From the NCBI GenBank assembly GCA_011620605.1, contig WOYW01000011.1, positions 175,229 through 239,228 of the forward strand: 64,000 bases of DNA. Direction: 5' to 3'. The stretch is from Bacteroidales bacterium (lineage in GTDB: Bacteria > Bacteroidota > Bacteroidia > Bacteroidales > UBA932). Positions 30,507 to 42,311 of the stretch are shown here, piece by piece. How positions within the stretch are numbered: position 1 is the stretch's first letter; the number at the start of each line of letters is the position of its first letter. The notes beneath the pieces are model-generated. The model was not told the origin of the DNA. It ran no database searches and worked only from the letters and a program-made list of their open reading frames with translations. The position numbers and the translations under genes are program-made.

Positions 30507-31025
30507 ATGAAAGACCGGGAGCTTTGGAAAGAGATATATAAGAAGTACGCGAAGCGCATGTTGACGGTCTGCATGCGGTATTCCCCGGGCAGGGAACAGG
30601 CAGAGGATATGATGCATGACGGATTCATGCAGGTGTTCCGGTCTTTGGATAAATTTACCGACCGGGGAGAAGGTTCTTTGAGAGCCTGGATGGAACGGAT
30701 CATGATCAATACATGTTTGCAACAGATCCGGAAAAAAGACCTGCTTAGGGACAGCTGTCCGGTGGAAACGTACAGGGAACCGGCCGATGATGCCTCACTG
30801 GAAGCGGCTGCCGAGAGTATTCCGGCTCCTGTTTTACTTCGTTTCATACAGGAACTTCCACCAGGGTACAGAACTGTTTTTAATCTTTATGTGTTTGAAG
30901 GGATGAACCATAAAGAGATTGCCCAAAAACTGAACATTAAAGAAAAAACATCCTCATCACAATTATACAGGGCTAAATGTTTGCTTGCCTCGCAAATAAA
31001 AGAATATGAAAGAAAGCAACAATAA
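30507..31025 (+). CDS. ECF-type RNA polymerase sigma factor
   Basis: A 172-residue sigma-70 relative. Region 2: YAKRMLTVCMRYSPGREQAEDMMHDGFMQVFRSL with the core-binding and minus-10 contact parts; region 4: ELPPGYRTVFNLYVFEGMNHKEIAQKLNIKEKT, the HTH for the minus-35 element. No region 1 or 3. Overlaps the next gene by 20 bp, the typical arrangement of an ECF sigma with its regulator. Confidence 0.92.
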   Translation: MKDRELWKEIYKKYAKRMLTVCMRYSPGREQAEDMMHDGFMQVFRSLDKFTDRGEGSLRAWMERIMINTCLQQIRKKDLLRDSCPVETYREPADDASLEAAAESIPAPVLLRFIQELPPGYRTVFNLYVFEGMNHKEIAQKLNIKEKTSSSQLYRAKCLLASQIKEYERKQQ

Positions 31026-32220
31026 ATGGACGGATATCGTCCGGGATAAAGTGAACGGACTTCCGGAAGTATTGGATACCGATGCTTCCTGGGGACGTAT
31101 GGAACGTAAGATCCTTGCTTTCTACCGGATCCGGTTTTTCAAATGGACAGGGCTGGCGGCAGCCTGTGTTGCTGCCATACTGGTTCCCGTACTCTTTTTG
31201 AACAGTGGAGGAGCCGGAATCACGGAACAGCCGGTCCACATAGTGAAACTGCTTTACGACGGGGCCGGATTGACATGTAAAGCCGAACGGCCGGTAAATA
31301 CTATATATATACTTCCCGGATCCCGTTCCAGATTTATTGCCACGCAACCGGCAGCGGATCCCGAACCTGAACCTGCTCCTGCGCAAGCACTTGCACAGGA
31401 ACAAGCTCCGGTAGCGGTTTCAGAAGCTCAAGCCGGGCCCGCCGGCGAGATTACCAAAACCCTGCCCGTTTATAATGCCGATCCTTTCGCACAGTCCGCC
31501 CAACAAACACGAACCCGGGGAAAATTCATGGTATCCGCCTCGGGCCTGTTGAACGTAAGCCGGGGAGGAGCGGCAGGTGCCCTGCCCATGAACGATCTTT
31601 TAATGTCTGACAACCGTTTGGCTACCTACGGGATCACGCATAAGGAAGCCGAGCTGAATGCCGACCAGGCTTCGTTCGCCCCGATCTCATTCGTTCTATA
31701 CGAATACAAACACAAAATGCCCGTTTCCTTTGGAGTTTACGCTTCTCTGCCTCTATCGGAGTACTGGTTCGTGGAAAGCGGGCTTTTTGCCACCCGTCTT
31801 GCCACCTCCATTTATTCCAAATCTTATGTGCAACTCAAGCCGGACAATACCGAACCTGTTTTTATTACAGACCGGGTTTTATGGTATTTGGGCGTTCCTT
31901 TAAAGGTCAGGTGGAACTTTGTGCAAAAAAAGTTTTTTACCTCTTATGCCTCAGTCGGAGGCATGCTGGAGAAATGCGTTTCGTTTGATTATACGGGATA
32001 CATGGACGATGAGAACATGCAGTTTACGACCGGTCAGATCCCTTTGCAATGGTCTGTAAATGCCACATTGGGAGCACAATACAACATCATTAGCGTACTT
32101 GGACTTTTCTTGGAACCGGGGGTCTCATTTTTCTTTGATAGTCACAACCCGGTACATACCATCCGGGGGGAAAGGCCTCTGTATTTTAACCTGAATGCAG
32201 GGATCCGTTTTAAGTTTTAA
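31006..32220 (+). CDS. Anti-sigma-like protein with C-terminal outer-membrane beta-barrel
   Basis: A 404-residue protein in three parts. Residues 1-45 (KESNNKWTDIVRDKVNGLPE) are cytoplasmic and resemble the short sigma-binding N termini of anti-sigma factors; 46-64 (WTGLAAACVAAILVPVLFL) form one transmembrane helix; 105-165 are a Pro/Ala/Glu/Gln-rich linker; about 240-404 form a beta-barrel ending GIRFKF with aromatic C-terminal Phe, the outer-membrane barrel signature. The protein should span both membranes, like dual-membrane-spanning anti-sigma factors (Dma) described in Bacteroides thetaiotaomicron. It overlaps the sigma gene, its likely partner. Confidence 0.82.
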   Translation: MKESNNKWTDIVRDKVNGLPEVLDTDASWGRMERKILAFYRIRFFKWTGLAAACVAAILVPVLFLNSGGAGITEQPVHIVKLLYDGAGLTCKAERPVNTIYILPGSRSRFIATQPAADPEPEPAPAQALAQEQAPVAVSEAQAGPAGEITKTLPVYNADPFAQSAQQTRTRGKFMVSASGLLNVSRGGAAGALPMNDLLMSDNRLATYGITHKEAELNADQASFAPISFVLYEYKHKMPVSFGVYASLPLSEYWFVESGLFATRLATSIYSKSYVQLKPDNTEPVFITDRVLWYLGVPLKVRWNFVQKKFFTSYASVGGMLEKCVSFDYTGYMDDENMQFTTGQIPLQWSVNATLGAQYNIISVLGLFLEPGVSFFFDSHNPVHTIRGERPLYFNLNAGIRFKF

Positions 32221-32314: not shown

Positions 32315-32506
32315 ATGAATAACGGAACCGTTAAATTTTACGATGAGATCAAAGGTTTTGGTTTTATCAAGGACGCAAACTCGTCCAAAGAGTATTTTGT
32401 ACATTCATCAGGTCTTATTGACAGGATCAGGGACAACGATGAAGTAACTTTCGACTTACAGGAAGGAAGAAAAGGATTAAATGCCGTAAATGTAAGACGC
32501 AGCTAA
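32315..32506 (+). CDS. Cold-shock domain protein
   Basis: A 63-residue CspA-type OB-fold protein: NGTVKFYDEIKGFGFIK with the RNP1-like KGFGFI, and KEYFVHSSGL with RNP2-like FVHSS. The ATG at 32315 is chosen because the upstream frame adds a T-rich non-homologous segment. It binds single-stranded nucleic acids and chaperones RNA. A strong terminator follows, so it is probably monocistronic. Confidence 0.92.
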   Translation: MNNGTVKFYDEIKGFGFIKDANSSKEYFVHSSGLIDRIRDNDEVTFDLQEGRKGLNAVNVRRS

Positions 32507-32527
32507 TCCTGCAACATACCATTTGCA

Positions 32528-32558
32528 ATCCCGCCGCTTAGCGACGGGATTTTTTTTT
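32528..32558 (+). terminator. Intrinsic terminator after the cold-shock gene
   Basis: ATCCCG-CCGCTTAGCGA-CGGGAT forms a stem of six GC-rich pairs, extended by an inner CGC/GCG, followed by TTTTTTTT. It separates the cold-shock gene from the PPTase-NRPS operon. Confidence 0.85.
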
Positions 32559-32559
32559 A

Positions 32560-32567
32560 TACTTTTG
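32560..32567 (+). promoter_or_regulatory. Minus-7 box (TACTTTTG) for the PPTase-NRPS operon
   Basis: TACTTTTG matches TAnnTTTG and starts 2 bp after the terminator T-run, 5 bp before the PPTase ATG. AAGG stands directly before the ATG, too close to act as a usual ribosome binding site. The message would be leaderless or nearly so. Confidence 0.5.
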
Positions 32568-32572
32568 TAAGG

Positions 32573-33160
32573 ATGATATACCTTTTGGCCCATGTGAATG
32601 CTTTACCGGACAATTTCCCTGAAATTTGCCGCACTTTCATGCCCCCGGAACGGAGCCGGCAAATGACGGGCTATGCCAGGATAACAGACCGTAAATTATG
32701 TGCAGCTGCTTATGTGTTACTGGTTTACGCCCTTAATAAGGAAAACCTGTTTACACGGCTGCCTGTTTTCGGCTACGGCCCCAACAACAAACCTTACCTG
32801 GCCAATTATCCCGGAATACACTTTAACATAAGCCATTGCGACGGGGCTGTGGTATGTGCCCTGTCCAAAGATCCGTTGGGCATAGATATTGAAAAAGTGG
32901 AGGACTACGATGACCAGATGGCCCGCTACATCTGCAACCCCATGGAATACGAGTGGGTTACGGCAATGCCTGGGATGGAAGAGCAACGGTTTACGGAAAT
33001 GTGGACACGCAAGGAAAGTTACGTCAAATCATTGGGAACCGGCATAGACTGCCACCCGCAAAAAATGGAAAGCGGGGAAAGCCGGGTGTTTTACACAAGC
33101 AACAATAACGATCAATACATAATAAGTCTCAGACAATGCAGCAAAAAACCTACCCCCTGA
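32573..33160 (+). CDS. Sfp-type 4'-phosphopantetheinyl transferase
   Basis: A 195-residue PPTase: NKPYLANYPGIHFNISHC in the middle, DPLGIDIEKVEDYD with the metal-binding Asp/Glu pair and FTEMWTRKESYVKSLGTG with the WxxKEA-like motif (here WTRKES). It transfers the 4'-phosphopantetheine arm from CoA to carrier domains. Its 3' end overlaps the NRPS start by 25 bp, so it is the dedicated activator of the NRPS, and perhaps of the two ACPs in the pigment operon. Confidence 0.92.
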   Translation: MIYLLAHVNALPDNFPEICRTFMPPERSRQMTGYARITDRKLCAAAYVLLVYALNKENLFTRLPVFGYGPNNKPYLANYPGIHFNISHCDGAVVCALSKDPLGIDIEKVEDYDDQMARYICNPMEYEWVTAMPGMEEQRFTEMWTRKESYVKSLGTGIDCHPQKMESGESRVFYTSNNNDQYIISLRQCSKKPTP

Positions 33161-36100
33161 CAAATGCACAGAAGGGCATGTATTACGAATGGCAGAAAGA
33201 CAAGGAACTGACCCAGTACAACAATCCCTTTCTTTATGAATTTCCCGACAAGATAAAGGCACAACAACTCAAAGAAGCCTTTCTCAAAGTAGTTCAGGCA
33301 CACCCTTTCCTGAAGCTTAAACTGAAATTGCCGGGCAACGGGGAAGTGGTCCAGTATTTTGTCAAAGAAGACCCTGTAACCATTCCCGTATACGAAACAA
33401 ATGAAGACGGGATCAGGGAACGCCTCCTTAAAACCATAAAGCCGTTTGACTTGTTGTCCGGAGAACCCCTCTATCGGATAGACATCTATAAAACCCCGCG
33501 AAAGATCTATGTCTTGCTGGACATACACCACATAGCTTACGACGGATCTTCCAGTACGGTATTTCACAGGGACCTGGTTAAAGCTTATAACGGGGAGGAA
33601 CTTCAGGAAGAAACTTTTACCTGTGGTGATTTTGCATTGTTGGAAACGGAACGCATGCAGGGAGAAGAATACAAACACGATGAAGTCTATTTTAACGAAA
33701 AACTTTCAGGAGTCACCCCGGCAAAGCTTCCTATACTGAACCGGTCCGAACAGGCTGCAGGGACGTTGGACAAAGTGTCTGAATATATTGATTATCAAGA
33801 AATAAGTGATTTTTGCAAACGCCTGGCTATTTCCCCCAACAACCTGTTCGCAGGAGCCCTGGGTATTTGTTTGAACCGTTATACACGTGAAAACAAGCTC
33901 TGTTTCTGTACGGCACACAACGGCCGCATAGACGAAAGGGTGCGGGACAGCGTGGGAATGTTTGTCAAAACACTGCCCGTGGTGGTGGAAACGGACCCCG
34001 GACAAAAGCTGGAAGATTACCTGAAAGGAATCCGTACCGGTATGAAAGAACTCTGGACACACCAAACGTATCCGTTTTCGGATATGGTAACCAATTTCGG
34101 GATCGCCATGGACCTGACCTACACCTATCAAAAAGGGATCCTGGAATATTTTCAAATGCCCCAGGGACAAGTCAAAATGGAATACATGCACGAAGGGTCC
34201 ACTCATGACAAACTAAGCATTTACATATACCAGTTCCCCGATAATTTTGAAATTCGTTGCGAATACAACAACGAACTTTACGACAGGGAATACATGGAGG
34301 TATTTGCCGCTTCCCTGAAAAACACGCTGGAAGAGATACTGGCTGCCGACCCTTCAAAAACCGCCTGCTCGGCAATCACGATTGTCAATCCCGGGGAAAG
34401 GGAAAAAGTGCTGAAATTTGCACAGGGCAACGAACTGGCCTACGACAACACCAAATCCTTCCCCGACCTTTTCCGGGAACAGGTGGCCAAAATTCCCAAA
34501 AACCCCGCAGTAAAAGACATATCCGGAACTTTGACTTATGAGGAACTGGACCGCCAGTCAGATGTGATGGCCCGCAAACTGATATACATGGGCGTCAAAC
34601 CCGACGATTTTGTGGCCGTGGTGTTATCCCGTCGGAAAGAATACGTGGTTACCGTGCTGGGGATCCAGAAAGCCAAAGCCGCTTACATACCCATGGATAG
34701 TGAATACCCCATTGACCGTTTGCTTTACATGATGGACAACAGCCGTTCCGCGGTATTGGTCACCGAAAAGGAACTCTACTCCAAAAAGCAGGAAGAAGGG
34801 GATTTTCAACACCGCAACGTACTTTTCCTGGAAGACATAAAACTGGATGTTCCGGTAGAAAAAGTGACCGATCTGCCCGGACCGGATAACCTGGCCTATA
34901 TGATCTACACATCCGGGTCCACCGGGAAACCCAAAGGTGTGATGATCAGCCACCGGGGACTGGTGGCCATGAGCACGGCACATGCCACTGACATGGGCAT
35001 CATTCCGGGGGACAGCAATATATGCCATGCCAGTTTCAGTTTTGACGCATCGGTACACGATATCTTCCCGCCTTTGTCTGCCGGGGCCTGCATACACGTG
35101 ATCCCTGCGGAAATGCGCCAGGACATGGTCATGCTTTACGAGTACATGATCAAGAACCGGATTACCGGGGGAACATTCAGCACCCAGTTTGGCCTGGAAA
35201 TGATCAACCAGTTTGAACTTCCCATGAAATACATGCTGGTGGGCGGGGAGAAAATGTTTCCCGTTAAAAAAAGAAACCTGAAGATCATCAACGGGTACGG
35301 ACCTACGGAATTCACCGTGTGTTCTGATTACCACATAGTGGACCAGGACAAAGATACCGGGAACATTCCCATAGGCCGTCCCGTTCCCAATTCCTGGTCG
35401 TACGTATTGGATGACAAACAGCAACTGCTGTCGGCCGGGGTGGCCGGCGAATTGTGCCTGGCCGGACCACAGATAGCCCTGGGTTACTGGCTGCGGGAAG
35501 ACCTGACTGCAGAACGCTTCATTGCGAATCCCTACAGTACGGGGGCTATAAACGACAAGATATACCGTACCGGGGACCTGGTACGCTGGCGCAGCGACGG
35601 ACTGATAGAGTACCTGGGCCGGATCGATACCCAGGTCAAATTGCGCGGATTCCGCATAGAACTTGGAGAGATCGAGACCGTTCTGTCCAAATTCCCGGGG
35701 ATCGTCTCGGCAGTGGCCGATGTGAAGGAATTCGGAGGTGCGCAGCAACTCTGCGCCTATTACCAGACAGAAGGGAACACGGATATTTCCGAGGACGCCC
35801 TCCTTGAGCACTTACGCGCCAGCCTGACCGACTATATGGTCCCCTCGGCCTTGCTCAAATTGAAGGCCTTTCCCATGACGCCCAACGGCAAAGTGGACCG
35901 TAAAAAACTGCCCATACCGCACCTTACCCTGAAAGAGATCATCCCTCCGCAAACCATCATGGAAAAAGACCTCTTTGGAATCGTAGCGGAAATCCTGCAG
36001 ACCAATGAGTTTGGCGTTACCACCAACCTGTTGTCCATAGGGCTGACCTCGTTGCTGGCCATCCGTTTTTCCGTGGTGGTCAAGCAGAAACTGGATATCA

Positions 36101-39100
36101 ACTTGCCCACCAAAGACATCCTGAAACTCAAAACCATACGGTTGCTGGCCCGTTTGCTGACAGCAGAAAGTGAAGAACCTGCCGCTGCCGAGATCAAGAC
36201 GTATCCCCCGCAGGAATATTACCCCCTTACCGAAACACAGAAAGGCATCTATTACGACTGGGAAAAAGCCCGGGAAGCCCTGCAGTACAACATACCTGTA
36301 GCTATCCGCAGCGGGGATCCCAAAACGTTGGATCCTGCCCGGTTGAAAGATGCCCTTACTAAAGTCATGAAAACGCACCGCTACCTGAAGACACGCCTGG
36401 TATTGCAAAAGGGCGAAGTCATGCAGCAGCGCCGGGACGAACAGGCTCCTGAGATCCTGGTCAAAAATGGTGAAGAAGGCAAAATGAAGTCGGTAATGAC
36501 GGAATTTGTGCAGCCTTTTGACCTGTTCAACGACAACCTGTACCGCTTTGAAATCTACACCACCCAATCTTCCGTCTACCTGCTGATGGATTTCCATCAC
36601 ATTGCCTTTGACGGTGCCTCCATGGGTATTTTCCTGCAGGATCTGCAAAACGCTCTGGGAGAGAAGGAGCTTCTTGCCGAGTCGGTCACTGCCTTTGATG
36701 TTTCCCTGTACGAACAGGAAGCCCTGCAATCCCCCGCTTACCGGCAGGCTGAGGAATACTTCGATGCCCTGACCGGAGGCGAGTGCACCATGTCCGTGAT
36801 ACCGCCTTCGCCCAAAGTTCCGGAAGGAAAGGAAACTGGGGATTACAGCCAGACCGTTCCTGGAAAGGCCATTGATGCTTTCTGCCGGGATTACGGCCTG
36901 ACAGCCAATACATTTTTCCTGTCGGCCCTGTCACAGGCCGTACAGCGTTATACACGCGAAGAACAAGTAGTATTGACGGTCTCTTCAGGTGGCAGGGCAG
37001 ATCCGCAACTGGCCCGGACAGTGGGTATGTTTGTCAAGACGCTGCCAATTAAAACGGACATGAAACCCCAACCTTTCATGGAATTTGCCAAAGCTGCCCA
37101 GGAACAGATGTTCAGCACCATGGAGCACGAGATCTTTCCCTTCACCAAAATGGTGGATAAATACGGTATCGTGCCGCAGATCAATTACGTATATGAGGGG
37201 GGGTTGGGCATTGAAATGAGCGTGGACAACAAGCTCCTGGATATTATTTACCTGGACCTGGAAGCCGCAAAATTCCCCTTTGGAGTGGTCGTTGAACCAC
37301 AAGGGAACGGTTACGAGGTTTCCATACAATACGATGCCACCAAATACGCACGGGAAGACGTGGTGCGTTTTGTGGAGCTTTATAAAAACATAGCCAATCA
37401 CGCTGCCCTCCGGCCCGATACACTGACTACTGAACTCACGTTGATGGAACCGGCTGTCCGGCAACAGGTACTGGAATTTTCGCAAGGTGTCCGGTTGCCT
37501 TACGACACCTCCAAAACCTTCATAGACCTGTTCCGTGAAAATGCGCTCAAATATCCCGGGAACAAAGCCGTTGCCGATAAGTGCGGAGCCCTTACCTTCA
37601 GCACCCTGGACCTGTATTCAGACCGTCTGGCGGCGGAACTGGCACTGCAGGGCGTGGTACCGGGTACCTTTGTGGCCGTGATGATGTCCCGGCGCAAAGA
37701 ATACGTGATCAGCATAGTAGCCATTCAGAAAGCCGGCGGGGCATACGTCCCTATGGACAGCGAATACCCCAACGACCGCCTGTTGTACATGCTGGAAAAC
37801 AGCGAATCCAAAGTCTTGATCATTGAAAGGAACATCTACGAAACCAAAAAGAAAGAAGGTAATTTTTACGTGGACAGCGTCCTTTTTGTGGATGAATTTG
37901 ACTTTGAAAAGGAACGATCCTTAAACGTGCAACCTCCTAAGCCGAAAGATCTTGCCTACATGATCTACACTTCCGGTTCAACCGGAAAACCCAAGGGCGT
38001 GATGATCCGTCACCTCTCGTTGGCGGCCAAAGTAAACTGGCAGGTGCACGATCTGGAGATCACCCCTCAGGACGCCAACGTCTGTCACCCCAGTTTCAGC
38101 TTTGATGCCTCGGTAGATGACCTGTTCGGACCGCTTGCCGGGGGAGCGTCGGTACATATTCTTTCCGAAGACATGCGCCAGAATATGGTGGAATTGTATC
38201 AATACACCGTGGACAACCACATCACCGGGGGATCGTTCAGCACCCAGTTTGGACTTGAAATGGTCAACCAGTTTGAACTGCCCCTGAGGTACATCATCAT
38301 GGGTGGCGAAAAAATGGTTCCGGTTAAGAAACGTAACGTACAAATAATCAACGGATACGGACCTACTGAATTTACTGTCTGCTCCAGCTACCACAAAGTG
38401 GACCAGGAAAAAGACACGGAAAACATACCCATCGGGAAACCCGTTCCCAATTCCTGGTCTTACGTACTGGACGACAAACAGCAATTGCTTCCGGCCGGTG
38501 TGGCCGGGGAATTGTGCCTGGCCGGACGGCAGACGGCACTGGGATACTGGAAGCGGGAAGACCTGACAGGGGAACGATTCATCACAAATCCTTACGCCCG
38601 ATCGGAAGACGACGCGATCCTTTACCGTACCGGGGACCTGGTGCGCTGGAATGCAAAAGGAGAGCTGGAATACATGGGCAGGATCGACAGCCAGATCAAA
38701 CTGCGGGGATTCCGCATTGAACTGGGCGAAATTGAGACCATGATGGCCAAGTACAAAGGCATTGCCGCGGCCGTTGCCGATGTCAGGGAATTCGGGGGAG
38801 CACAGCAGCTGGTGGGGTATTACGTGGTGGAACCGTTCGGGAAAGTAGATCCGGCGGCACTCGAGGCCTACCTGCGCTCAGGACTGACAGAATACATGGT
38901 CCCCTCGGCCTTTATGGAAATGAAGACCTTCCCCATGACACCCAACGGCAAGGTAAACCGCAAACTGCTGCCCCTGCCTGAAATGGTCCGGGAACAGCCT
39001 TATGTGGCTCCGGGCACCAGGCTGGAAGAAGATTTGTGTAGAATCTATGCCGATATTCTGCAACTTGAAAAAGTGGGCATCCTGGATAATTTCTTCCACA

Positions 39101-40449
39101 TCGGAGGCACTTCCATGTCTGCCATCAAGGCCATAATACGCATCATCAACCTGGGCTACGACATTAAATACGGAGATCTGTTTGAACGCAAGACTTCCAA
39201 AGCCATTGCGGAGTTCCTGACCGAATCCGCCTCGGCAAAAGAAAAAGAAAAAGAAAGTGCGGCCAGGAAAGGGATCGGGGATTACGATTATTCGGCCATT
39301 GACAACCTGCTGAGTAAGGCTCGGCCGGAACTCTGGGACGGCTACACCCCGCGCAACGTTGGGGACGTGCTCCTGACAGGGGCTACCGGATACCTGGGGA
39401 TGCACCTGTTAAAACAGCTTATAGAAGAGGAAGATAACATCATTTATTGCATGGTTCGCGCCAAAGGAATCCTGACTTCCGAAAGGCGGTTGAAATCGCA
39501 ATTAATGTATTATTTCTCCAATACCCATGAAGACCTGTTTGGCAAACGCATCATTCCCGTTGACGGGGACATAACCAATCCCGGTACGCTGGAATCCCTT
39601 AAAGGTATGGGCATTGGGACCGTATACAATTGTGCTGCGGTAGTTAAGCATTATGCTGCCGGGGATGAACTGGAAAAGATCAATGTACAGGGAGTTTCCA
39701 ACCTGGTGGATTTCTGCCGCAGCGACAACGCACGGTTGATCCACGTTTCCACGGTCAGTGTGAGCGGTATGCGTCCAAAAGACTCGGCAAACACGGGCGT
39801 TCTGGACGAAAGTGTGTTGTATATGGGGCAGGATATCGACAACCAGTACGTTCGAAGTAAATTCCTTTCGGAAAGGGTGGTGCTCCAGGCGGTTGCAGAA
39901 GGTATGGACGGGAAGGTCATGCGGGTTGGAAACCTCATGGGACGCCAGTCCGACGGTGAATTCCAGATCAATTTCCGCAGCAACGCGTTCATCAATACCC
40001 TGAAATCCTACAAGGTCCTGGGCATGTTCCCGCTGAGCGGGCTGATTGCCCCTGCCGAGGTGTCTCCCATTGACTGCGTGGCCCGTGCCGTACATGTGCT
40101 TTCCAAAACGCCTTCCGATGTAGTGGTGCTGCACGCCTACAACAACTACCGGCTGAACATGGCCAACCTGGTGTATGCCATGAAGGATTACGGCTTTGAT
40201 ATTGAACTGGTTTCCGACGAACGTTTCAACAAGCACTTTAAGAAAATGATGCAGGACCCGTCCAGGAGCGAATACCTGGGAGGCTTGCTCCATTATGGTA
40301 CAGACACAGAAAAAGTACCCGTTCCGGATGACAACAGCTACACCACGTTGTTGCTTTACCGCAATGATGTACGCTGGCCGCTTGCCGATGAAGGGTACTC
40401 TTTGAAGCTGATTGAAATGCTGGACGGAATGGGATTCTTTGACCAATGA
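33136..40449 (+). CDS. Two-module NRPS with terminal reductase (C-A-T-C-A-T-R)
   Basis: A 2437-residue megaenzyme. Domains by residue: C1 with HHIAYDG (~130), A1 with YTSGSTGKPKG (~590), T1 with LSIGLTSL (~970), C2 with HHIAFDG (~1153), A2 with the same YTSGSTGKPKG (~1610), T2 with HIGGTSMSA (~1991), reductase with LLTGATGYLG (~2080) and YVRSK (~2237). The leading C domain suggests an acyl-cap or starter role; the reductase releases the peptide as an aldehyde, which may cyclise to a pyrazinone. By eye the A-domain codes read D-A-H-Q-L-G-G-V-C-K and D-A-D-Q-I-G-G-V-C-K; no substrate can be assigned. Same architecture as gut dipeptide-aldehyde synthetases I know. Confidence 0.93.
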   Translation: MQQKTYPLTNAQKGMYYEWQKDKELTQYNNPFLYEFPDKIKAQQLKEAFLKVVQAHPFLKLKLKLPGNGEVVQYFVKEDPVTIPVYETNEDGIRERLLKTIKPFDLLSGEPLYRIDIYKTPRKIYVLLDIHHIAYDGSSSTVFHRDLVKAYNGEELQEETFTCGDFALLETERMQGEEYKHDEVYFNEKLSGVTPAKLPILNRSEQAAGTLDKVSEYIDYQEISDFCKRLAISPNNLFAGALGICLNRYTRENKLCFCTAHNGRIDERVRDSVGMFVKTLPVVVETDPGQKLEDYLKGIRTGMKELWTHQTYPFSDMVTNFGIAMDLTYTYQKGILEYFQMPQGQVKMEYMHEGSTHDKLSIYIYQFPDNFEIRCEYNNELYDREYMEVFAASLKNTLEEILAADPSKTACSAITIVNPGEREKVLKFAQGNELAYDNTKSFPDLFREQVAKIPKNPAVKDISGTLTYEELDRQSDVMARKLIYMGVKPDDFVAVVLSRRKEYVVTVLGIQKAKAAYIPMDSEYPIDRLLYMMDNSRSAVLVTEKELYSKKQEEGDFQHRNVLFLEDIKLDVPVEKVTDLPGPDNLAYMIYTSGSTGKPKGVMISHRGLVAMSTAHATDMGIIPGDSNICHASFSFDASVHDIFPPLSAGACIHVIPAEMRQDMVMLYEYMIKNRITGGTFSTQFGLEMINQFELPMKYMLVGGEKMFPVKKRNLKIINGYGPTEFTVCSDYHIVDQDKDTGNIPIGRPVPNSWSYVLDDKQQLLSAGVAGELCLAGPQIALGYWLREDLTAERFIANPYSTGAINDKIYRTGDLVRWRSDGLIEYLGRIDTQVKLRGFRIELGEIETVLSKFPGIVSAVADVKEFGGAQQLCAYYQTEGNTDISEDALLEHLRASLTDYMVPSALLKLKAFPMTPNGKVDRKKLPIPHLTLKEIIPPQTIMEKDLFGIVAEILQTNEFGVTTNLLSIGLTSLLAIRFSVVVKQKLDINLPTKDILKLKTIRLLARLLTAESEEPAAAEIKTYPPQEYYPLTETQKGIYYDWEKAREALQYNIPVAIRSGDPKTLDPARLKDALTKVMKTHRYLKTRLVLQKGEVMQQRRDEQAPEILVKNGEEGKMKSVMTEFVQPFDLFNDNLYRFEIYTTQSSVYLLMDFHHIAFDGASMGIFLQDLQNALGEKELLAESVTAFDVSLYEQEALQSPAYRQAEEYFDALTGGECTMSVIPPSPKVPEGKETGDYSQTVPGKAIDAFCRDYGLTANTFFLSALSQAVQRYTREEQVVLTVSSGGRADPQLARTVGMFVKTLPIKTDMKPQPFMEFAKAAQEQMFSTMEHEIFPFTKMVDKYGIVPQINYVYEGGLGIEMSVDNKLLDIIYLDLEAAKFPFGVVVEPQGNGYEVSIQYDATKYAREDVVRFVELYKNIANHAALRPDTLTTELTLMEPAVRQQVLEFSQGVRLPYDTSKTFIDLFRENALKYPGNKAVADKCGALTFSTLDLYSDRLAAELALQGVVPGTFVAVMMSRRKEYVISIVAIQKAGGAYVPMDSEYPNDRLLYMLENSESKVLIIERNIYETKKKEGNFYVDSVLFVDEFDFEKERSLNVQPPKPKDLAYMIYTSGSTGKPKGVMIRHLSLAAKVNWQVHDLEITPQDANVCHPSFSFDASVDDLFGPLAGGASVHILSEDMRQNMVELYQYTVDNHITGGSFSTQFGLEMVNQFELPLRYIIMGGEKMVPVKKRNVQIINGYGPTEFTVCSSYHKVDQEKDTENIPIGKPVPNSWSYVLDDKQQLLPAGVAGELCLAGRQTALGYWKREDLTGERFITNPYARSEDDAILYRTGDLVRWNAKGELEYMGRIDSQIKLRGFRIELGEIETMMAKYKGIAAAVADVREFGGAQQLVGYYVVEPFGKVDPAALEAYLRSGLTEYMVPSAFMEMKTFPMTPNGKVNRKLLPLPEMVREQPYVAPGTRLEEDLCRIYADILQLEKVGILDNFFHIGGTSMSAIKAIIRIINLGYDIKYGDLFERKTSKAIAEFLTESASAKEKEKESAARKGIGDYDYSAIDNLLSKARPELWDGYTPRNVGDVLLTGATGYLGMHLLKQLIEEEDNIIYCMVRAKGILTSERRLKSQLMYYFSNTHEDLFGKRIIPVDGDITNPGTLESLKGMGIGTVYNCAAVVKHYAAGDELEKINVQGVSNLVDFCRSDNARLIHVSTVSVSGMRPKDSANTGVLDESVLYMGQDIDNQYVRSKFLSERVVLQAVAEGMDGKVMRVGNLMGRQSDGEFQINFRSNAFINTLKSYKVLGMFPLSGLIAPAEVSPIDCVARAVHVLSKTPSDVVVLHAYNNYRLNMANLVYAMKDYGFDIELVSDERFNKHFKKMMQDPSRSEYLGGLLHYGTDTEKVPVPDDNSYTTLLLYRNDVRWPLADEGYSLKLIEMLDGMGFFDQ

Positions 40450-40506: not shown

Positions 40507-41646
40507 TTATTTGAAAAGCAGTTTTCCGAAGATGGTCAGGTAGGTCCTCCAGTTGGGCCATGTGTGACCTCCTCCGCTTACGTAATAGGTGTGTTCCAGT
40601 CCGTTGCGTTCCAGTGCCTGGTGTAATGCATTAGCGGATTCAAACAGGAAGTCCTCCTTTCCGCAGCCTACCCAGTAGAGTTTGTAGCCTGCCTTTTTAA
40701 TGGCCTTCAATTCCGCGTCAATTTCCTGCCCGTCACGGATCCCCATGCTCAAGGGACAGATGTAGCCGAACATGCCCGGGTAGAGGTTGCTTACAGACAT
40801 GGTGTGTCCGCCGCCCATGGACAATCCGGCCACGGCGCGGCTTTCCGGTTTGGCAATTACCCTGAAATGCTTTTCTACGTAAGGAATGATGTCTTTTACC
40901 AGGGAATTCACGTAGAGGTTGGCAGTGGCCGGATCACCCCACTGGAATTCCTTTTCAGGCAACATGAGCGTTTTGGCGGCCTGTTGCCAGGGATTCCCGT
41001 TGGGCATGACCACGATCATGGGCTCGGCTTCTCCTTTTTCAATCATATTGTCCAGGATCTGGCGGGCGCGTCCCATACTGCTCCAGGCCTCTTCATCACC
41101 GCCTGCTCCATGCAATAAGTACAATACCGGGTATTTCTTCCGGGGATTGGCCTCGTAACCGTAAGGTGTGTAGACGGTTATCCGGCGCTGGAACCCGATA
41201 GTGGGGGAATCGTACCAGACGGATTTCAGGTTGCCGCGTTGGGTGGCTTCCTTGTAGTATTCGGATATGCCGCCTTCAACAAGCAACATACTCAAATAGC
41301 GCGTTCCGTCGCGTTGCATGTGTACGTTGGACGGGTCGTTCATACTTACACCGTCCACAACGAAACTGTAGGTGTAGATCTCGGGATCCGGCAGCGGAAT
41401 GGTGGCGGACCAGACGCCCGAAGTATCCCTTGACATGGCCAGGGTAGAGCGGAAATCAGCCATCCAGGATCCGTACAGACGGACTTCGTAAGCCCGGGGG
41501 GCCAGCAAGCGGAAAGTTACCTGGCTTTCGGTGATCTCGGGGGAGACAATGGGCTCGCGGCCAAAATTGAAATTACGCAATTCCTGCGCAGAAGATGTGG
41601 TGACCAGGGCGGTCAATAGAAATAACAATACTGAATATTTTTTCAT
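40507..41646 (-). CDS. Secreted esterase with N-terminal Ig-like domain (CE1-type)
   Basis: A 379-residue protein with a signal peptide (KKYSVLLFLLTALVTTSSAQ). Residues ~30-125 form an early-set/CBM48-like domain (VTFRLLAPRAYEVRLYGSW); then an esterase D/CE1 domain: VLYLLHGAGGDEEAWSSMG, nucleophile in VAGLSMGGGHTM, and His in GGGHTWPNWR. Related to feruloyl and xylan esterases of polysaccharide loci. It runs convergent to the NRPS. Its possible action on the NRPS product is speculation. Confidence 0.85.
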   Translation of the reverse strand: MKKYSVLLFLLTALVTTSSAQELRNFNFGREPIVSPEITESQVTFRLLAPRAYEVRLYGSWMADFRSTLAMSRDTSGVWSATIPLPDPEIYTYSFVVDGVSMNDPSNVHMQRDGTRYLSMLLVEGGISEYYKEATQRGNLKSVWYDSPTIGFQRRITVYTPYGYEANPRKKYPVLYLLHGAGGDEEAWSSMGRARQILDNMIEKGEAEPMIVVMPNGNPWQQAAKTLMLPEKEFQWGDPATANLYVNSLVKDIIPYVEKHFRVIAKPESRAVAGLSMGGGHTMSVSNLYPGMFGYICPLSMGIRDGQEIDAELKAIKKAGYKLYWVGCGKEDFLFESANALHQALERNGLEHTYYVSGGGHTWPNWRTYLTIFGKLLFK

Positions 41647-41777
41647 ACAATCGTGTATAATGGTTTTACATATACAAATATGACTCTAAAAAGCCGGAAA
41701 AGTTTATGTATACGTTCACCATTGTTTTCAATTTGTGCGAAAAGTTATACCTTTAATCCTCAAACTTGATTTTCACC

Positions 41778-42311
41778 ATGAAAGTACATAATCCCTGGCA
41801 CAGCGTTGAGCCCGATCTTGAAGGGTTCCAGGTAAACGCTATCATTGAGATCAGCAACGGAGGCCGCGCTAAGTACGAAATGGACAAGGAAACCGGGCTG
41901 TTGCGCCTGGACCGCGTGTTGTACTCGGCCGTGTATTATCCCGCCAATTACGGTTTCATCCCGCGAACTTACGCCAAAGACGACGACCCGCTGGATGTGC
42001 TGGTCCTGTCACAGATAGCCATCCAGCCGCTTTGTATTGTTCGTGTAAAGATCATAGGGGTGATGCAGATGGTGGACCAGGGCAAGCCCGATGACAAGTT
42101 GATTGCCGTGGCCAGTCACGATAAAAGCGTGAGCCACATAGACAAGATCAAGGACATGCCGCCCATCTTTGATTCCGAACTCAAGCAATTCTTTGAGGAA
42201 TACAAACGCCTGGAAGAAAAAGACGTACTGGTGGAAGATTTTTCAGACAGGTCCAAAGCCATGAAGATCCTGGAAGATGCCCTGTTGCGGTATAAGGAGC
42301 TGTATCATTAA
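41778..42311 (+). CDS. ppa: Inorganic pyrophosphatase (family I)
   Basis: A 177-residue enzyme. Start at the ATG at 41778 (MKVHNPWHSVEP) over a TTG frame start at 41766. YPANYGFIPRTYAKDDDPLDVLVL holds the metal-binding Asp triad (DDDPLDVL), with Glu in IIEISNGGRAKYEMDK. It hydrolyses pyrophosphate released by biosynthetic reactions, including NRPS adenylation. A TACCTTTA box at 41748-41755 is a possible promoter. Confidence 0.93.
   Translation: MKVHNPWHSVEPDLEGFQVNAIIEISNGGRAKYEMDKETGLLRLDRVLYSAVYYPANYGFIPRTYAKDDDPLDVLVLSQIAIQPLCIVRVKIIGVMQMVDQGKPDDKLIAVASHDKSVSHIDKIKDMPPIFDSELKQFFEEYKRLEEKDVLVEDFSDRSKAMKILEDALLRYKELYH

Follow-up and report, generated by a model that had tools for sequence, protein, structure and literature searches.

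The synthetase family described here poses a question: what is the role of a leading condensation (C) domain in an enzyme that has no upstream module? It arises at a locus in a 64,000-nucleotide stretch of Bacteroidales DNA (the window), in which a 4'-phosphopantetheinyl transferase (PPTase) gene runs into a non-ribosomal peptide synthetase (NRPS) gene. A sequence-only reading had already described a two-module, reductase-ending NRPS with its own PPTase, and as a whole that observation is confirmed below, except for the specificity codes. Our preferred reading, to which we give a probability of about 0.47, is that the NRPS would couple two amino acids and let the product go as a dipeptide aldehyde, with an acyl unit likely placed on the first amino group by the leading C domain.

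Domain organisation of the synthetase

The NRPS frame is open and complete. Pfam finds two Condensation, two AMP-binding, one PP-binding and one NAD_binding_4 domain in it, and the second carrier domain (T2), which falls below the Pfam threshold by itself, was recovered by phmmer dissection and through its match to a solved PCP-R didomain. These three lines of evidence bear out the C-A-T-C-A-T-R order that had been claimed (Table 1). On inspection the catalytic motifs of the C, T and R domains are all intact, with TGATGYLG, Y2238 and K2242 kept in the reductase, and the protein combines two features expected of a C-A-T-C-A-T-R dipeptide-aldehyde synthetase, namely this domain order with a terminal thioester reductase and intact motifs. 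The frame is conserved at 60-90% identity in other genomes and has a per-domain dN/dS of 0.07-0.18 (NG86) against three orthologues (L003, L005 and L006; in the comparison with a fourth, L008, synonymous sites are saturated in every domain except T1), which argues that it is more than a chance reading frame. By phmmer dissection the two A domains are 62% identical, against 31% for C1/C2 and 34% for T1/T2. Recent duplication of a whole module was discarded on these figures, which suggest instead that the A domain only was exchanged or copied.

The predicted neighbouring PPTase is also present, the end of its frame overlapping the start of the NRPS by 25 bases. From its family and position it would arm T1 and T2. 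It scores 57 bits against the NCBIfam AusB model (cut-off 225). PPTase matches of at least 55% identity occur in seven of the 13 same-genus genomes, all seven of them NRPS carriers; in G012, also an NRPS carrier, the contig starts within the NRPS gene.

Table 1. Coordinates of the cassette, its borders and the synthetase domains within the window.
Feature	Position	Strand	Basis or remark
Cold-shock-domain (CSD) gene, left neighbour, outside the cassette	32315..32506	+	PF00313; adjoins pyrophosphatase in three empty sites
Intrinsic-terminator-like inverted repeat then T run, downstream of the CSD gene	32527..32558	+	Sequence; 10/10 loci
TACTTTTG, fits TAxxTTTG	32560..32567	+	Same place in 10/10 loci
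4'-Phosphopantetheinyl transferase	32573..33160	+	PF01648, 2.2e-14
NRPS, C-A-T-C-A-T-R, 2437 aa	33136..40449	+	ORF, Pfam, phmmer dissection
C1, leading condensation domain, HHIAYDG	33136..34410	+	
A1, code DAHGLGGVCK	34468..35910	+	
T1, Ser in GLTS	35938..36171	+	
C2, elongation, HHIAFDG	36205..37455	+	
A2, code DADGIGGVCK	37531..38979	+	
T2, Ser in GGTS	38992..39231	+	Alignment to solved PCP-R didomain
Thioester reductase domain (R)	39355..40446	+	NAD_binding_4, 3.1e-35; 6vtj, 330 bits; 4f6l, 168 bits
Inorganic pyrophosphatase, right-hand border gene, outside the cassette	41766..42311	+	PF00719

The cassette is likely its own transcription unit

The terminator-like repeat and the TAxxTTTG motif, which we take to be the Bacteroidota -7 promoter motif, align in all ten loci compared (seven with the NRPS and three without). 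They lie directly 5' of a start codon, which belongs to the PPTase in loci with the cassette and to the pyrophosphatase in loci that lack it. The motif (within 32560-32575 in the window, and at the same place in nine other loci) stands 4-8 bases before the start codon in every case, which would imply a very short or absent leader; TAxxTTTG occurs 50 times in the window when both strands are counted, and the repeat is absent from the sites listed by a consensus scan. Since a terminator-like repeat and a promoter-like motif precede the PPTase, the PPTase-NRPS cassette is likely to be transcribed as a unit of its own.

The gene order NigD, ECF sigma factor, 404-aa frame, CSD, PPTase, NRPS is shared by the window, L003, L006, L009 and L010, by L008, which is more distant, and by L005 from the sigma gene onward, where its contig begins. 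G007, G008 and G009 have empty sites, with the CSD and pyrophosphatase genes adjoining (64-74 bases between the matches) and neither the PPTase nor the NRPS matched. When two flanking proteins were used for a small tree, these three sites separated from the remaining eight loci (support 1.000), consistent with a single gain or a single loss. The ECF sigma, 404-aa and CSD genes precede the PPTase in all six other loci with an upstream flank (L003, L005, L006, L008, L009 and L010); they were nevertheless rejected as members of the cluster, being present without the NRPS in three genomes and separated from the cassette by the terminator-like repeat. An esterase gene at 40507-41646 was likewise rejected, since its orthologue adjoins the NRPS in L006 and not in L003 or L005.

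Two other features of the surroundings were observed. The 404-aa frame (31006-32220, + strand), which lies right after the ECF sigma gene and occurs both with and without the NRPS, is fast-evolving and has no Pfam match; by eye, an N-terminal segment and a single membrane helix precede a C-terminal half that looks barrel-like and ends in Phe, and the protein is perhaps a fusion of an anti-sigma factor with an outer-membrane barrel. The second feature, some 8 kb upstream of the cassette, is a tightly packed series of genes (3878-24313, - strand) that encodes three ketoacyl synthases, an SDR, a thioesterase, an LpxL-type acyltransferase, an MMPL/acyltransferase fusion, LolA, a glycosyltransferase, an AMP-binding enzyme and an aromatic amino acid lyase, and looks like an aryl polyene/flexirubin-type pigment cluster.

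Specificity codes of the adenylation domains

The codes in Table 1 come from aligning A1 and A2 with the linear gramicidin synthase A domains and from a separate MAFFT alignment of 352 A domains, with columns assigned to the ten code positions by what we take to be the GrsA numbering, in alignments that do not contain GrsA itself. The earlier by-eye codes, DAHQLGGVCK and DADQIGGVCK, were right except at position 278, which is Gly in both domains, the Q having been read from five residues downstream. The accompanying statement that the codes match no familiar substrate is supported by a search of the accessible literature with six codes, both of these included, which returned no paper. No substrate could be assigned from solved A domains, among which the top matches include the linear gramicidin, tyrocidine 1 and gramicidin S synthetases. 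In the close relatives P0002-P0010, A1 position 278 is G or S and A2 position 299 is I or V, and P0012 (60% identical) has the codes DAQGMGGVCK and DADGMGGVCK; Asp is found at A2 position 239 in all of these proteins. A1 and A2 would each load a residue that cannot be named from its code, and C2 would form the peptide bond between the two. The product is possibly new.

Reductive release

The sequence-only reading depended on the terminal domain being a thioester reductase, and it is one: T2-R matches the 6vtj PCP-R didomain with 330 bits, the AusA reductase (4f6l) with 168 and MxaA with 77. With a thioester reductase as the last domain, a dipeptide aldehyde is the predicted product, and by analogy with AusA we infer release by a two-electron reduction of the thioester with NAD(P)H. 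MxaA-type reductases perform a four-electron release, giving an alcohol or, after transamination, an amine, and the NRPS also matches the model of the myxochelin enzyme MxcG (748 bits, cut-off 2300), as might be expected if a dipeptide alcohol or amine were formed here. However, the reductase scores higher against AusA than against MxaA, and the two-gene cassette contains no aminotransferase, so that we consider such a product very improbable.

Cap or pyrazinone: the role of the leading C domain

Several observations indicate that C1 is probably used. Its dN/dS is 0.096, 0.118 and 0.102 against L003, L005 and L006 respectively, compared with 0.132, 0.179 and 0.132 for C2 (NG86), and its HHxxxDG motif is kept in the ten closest proteins examined (P0001-P0009 and P0012). 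We built a tree from 201 C domains of reductase-ending proteins (40 N-terminal and 161 internal, with no characterised starter included), in which a clade with support 0.957 contains 27 of the 40 N-terminal domains, C1 among them, together with one internal domain. The other 13 N-terminal domains fall outside it, C2 groups with the internal ones, and the node linking the clade to its neighbours is weak (support 0.201). C1 is therefore both first in line and apart from the internal C domains in the tree, as a starter domain would be, and it is on account of its intactness, its constraint (dN/dS about 0.1) and this grouping, mostly with other N-terminal C domains, that we regard it as probably in use.

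While dN/dS and the tree favour use of C1, that view is tempered by the decay of the motif in relatives and by elongation-type matches. HHxxxDG is kept in all 161 internal C domains but in 35 of the 40 N-terminal ones, indicating that the leading C domain decays in some relatives; in four of the five exceptions both the second His and the Asp remain, while the motif of the fifth is broken. Two proteins as recorded, P0063 and P0083, begin with Met and have no leading C domain altogether. The nearest solved relatives of C1, among 19 listed, are from the tyrocidine, linear gramicidin and bacitracin synthetases, whose C domains we take to be elongation-type, and we recognise no lipo-starter among the 19. 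Finally, C1 alone matches only the internal C domain of the AusA model, as one stretch, leaving the N-terminal region of the model unmatched.

The leading C domain had been read as implying an N-cap, and the product as possibly cyclising to a pyrazinone. Neither step follows so simply: pyrazinones are said to be made typically by enzymes of C-A-T-C-A-T-R layout, so that the domain by itself does not imply a cap, and cyclisation to a pyrazinone requires a free amine (both from the accessible part of PMC10979478), which makes cap and pyrazinone mutually exclusive alternatives. If C1 does not acylate, a free dipeptide aldehyde would close to a cyclic imine (dihydropyrazinone) and, on oxidation, give a pyrazinone, as in the aureusimines. 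This outcome, which we consider a substantial possibility, draws on the typical layout, on the AusA precedent (as outlined in the accessible text of PMC12153313), on the resemblance of C1 to elongation C domains in the structure matches and on the relatives with an altered or missing leading domain, and has to contend with the motif kept in the closest proteins, a constraint on C1 equal to that on other domains, the lineage formed by 27 of the 40 N-terminal C domains and the match of C1 to just the internal C domain of the AusA model.

N-terminal elongation-type C domains usually receive their chain in trans, and the elongation-type look of C1 in the structure matches would also suit a donor supplied by a partner NRPS, giving a product longer than a dipeptide. 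Against this, the genome (94.5% complete) contains no Condensation match beyond the two in the NRPS, and we rate a partner in trans as very improbable. As the genome yielded no second NRPS that could supply C1, the acyl donor for the preferred capped product would be an acyl-CoA or acyl-ACP of primary metabolism. Capping by C1 is the least sure step of the scheme; a capped aldehyde would be unable to close into a ring and would inhibit proteases. Counted against the cap are the typical pyrazinone layout, the structure matches, the 13 N-terminal domains outside the clade, motif decay, P0063 and P0083, and the missing acyl genes (neither an acyl-CoA ligase nor an ACP gene is found within the two-gene cassette). 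On balance we lean slightly towards the cap over the uncapped product.

Distribution and habitat

The NRPS is found, whole or cut, in eight of the 13 same-genus genomes (G000, G001, G002, G004, G005, G010, G011 and G012). Of the remainder, G007-G009 have the empty site, the G003 contig ends before the site and G006 (82% complete) has no close match to the 404-aa frame. At L010 (G001:C42) there are two TAA codons in the NRPS match and one TGA in the PPTase match, reflecting decay or assembly error. In a sample of 344 genomes from the order, a T2-R match at 1e-60 or better occurs in five, from four of 195 genera including its own. In G027, of the same family, a frame of 2409 aa is about 31% identical along its length, and G054:C186 and G037:C10, from other families of the order, have other NRPS frames (4598 and 1925 aa) about 30% identical. 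A protein search with the NRPS gave 2674 matches; when the best 120 of these were dissected together with the query, 22 of the set proved to be C-A-T-C-A-T-R, others having three or four modules, no leading C domain or no R domain.

Named carriers are eight Bacteroidales MAG records (e.g. DTU002, ADurb.Bin139 and UBA5326), and from matching coordinates and identities we infer that seven are same-genus genomes. The gut setting originally proposed is not supported by these records: a literature search for six of the eight names returned papers on just two, DTU002 and UBA5326, and both are reported from biogas digesters. DTU002 comes from manure-fed biogas reactors and is called dominant under mesophilic conditions (accessible parts of PMC4736482 and PMC5985405, respectively), and UBA5326, which carries the 60% homologue, made up on average 19.5% of the prokaryotes enumerated in four poultry-litter digesters at week 23, and 7.7% at week 42 (PMC10535533, accessible part).

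A small peptide aldehyde of the kind predicted from the cassette is likely to block proteases. A role for dipeptide aldehydes of gut bacteria in inhibiting host proteases has been discussed; if Bacteroidales that can be abundant in biogas digesters keep such a cassette intact and under selection, the function would need no host. We also entertain, as a rather unlikely generalisation, that the leading C domains of reductase-ending enzymes form a distinct starter lineage borrowing acyl groups from primary metabolism, and that a branch of two- and three-module enzymes, mostly apparently from Bacteroidota, makes N-acyl peptide aldehydes on unassigned residues, which in digesters would serve outside any animal host as protease inhibitors against competing protein degraders. 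The cassette lends itself to testing: its two genes should be enough for expression, and related genomes with naturally empty sites are ready controls.

Comparison with known systems

A search of titles and abstract openings, with subscription papers largely outside its scope, found no description of this PPTase-NRPS cassette. The aureusimine (phevalin, tyrvalin) synthetase AusA/AusB of staphylococci shares its two modules, terminal reductase and adjoining PPTase. The AusA model NF047350 is the best NCBIfam match to the NRPS, at 1185.5 bits; this is under half of the cut-off of 2500, and membership of the aureusimine equivalog was rejected. An aureusimine synthetase would be expected to have a second A domain specific for Tyr/Phe. 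AusA is described, in the accessible text of PMC12153313, as A1-T1-C-A2-T2-R with an A1 that takes Val, whereas the NRPS here adds an intact leading C domain. The closest solved structure to T2-R, over nearly its full length, is the PCP-R didomain 6vtj/6vtz, and the comparison covers these two domains only. We take that didomain to be archaeal.

With the gut dipeptide-aldehyde/pyrazinone synthetases (Guo 2017; ruminopeptin), to which the C-A-T-C-A-T-R layout is ascribed (accessible parts of PMC10979478 and PMC12327764), the enzyme shares the logic of a two-residue aldehyde, a likeness drawn from their description; the two digester carriers set it apart from them. Starter condensation (lipoinitiation) domains resemble C1 in being first-position C domains set apart from internal ones (Rausch 2007; PMC1894796, accessible part). 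C1 differs from them in its elongation-type best solved matches and in a cassette with no acyl-activating gene, an absence that is not decisive, since the RzmA and HolA clusters also have none (PMC7804268, accessible part). The cassette is thus ordinary in kind and useful as a test case: the kind of enzyme is already known, and what is new is its unassigned codes, its intact leading C domain and its digester setting.
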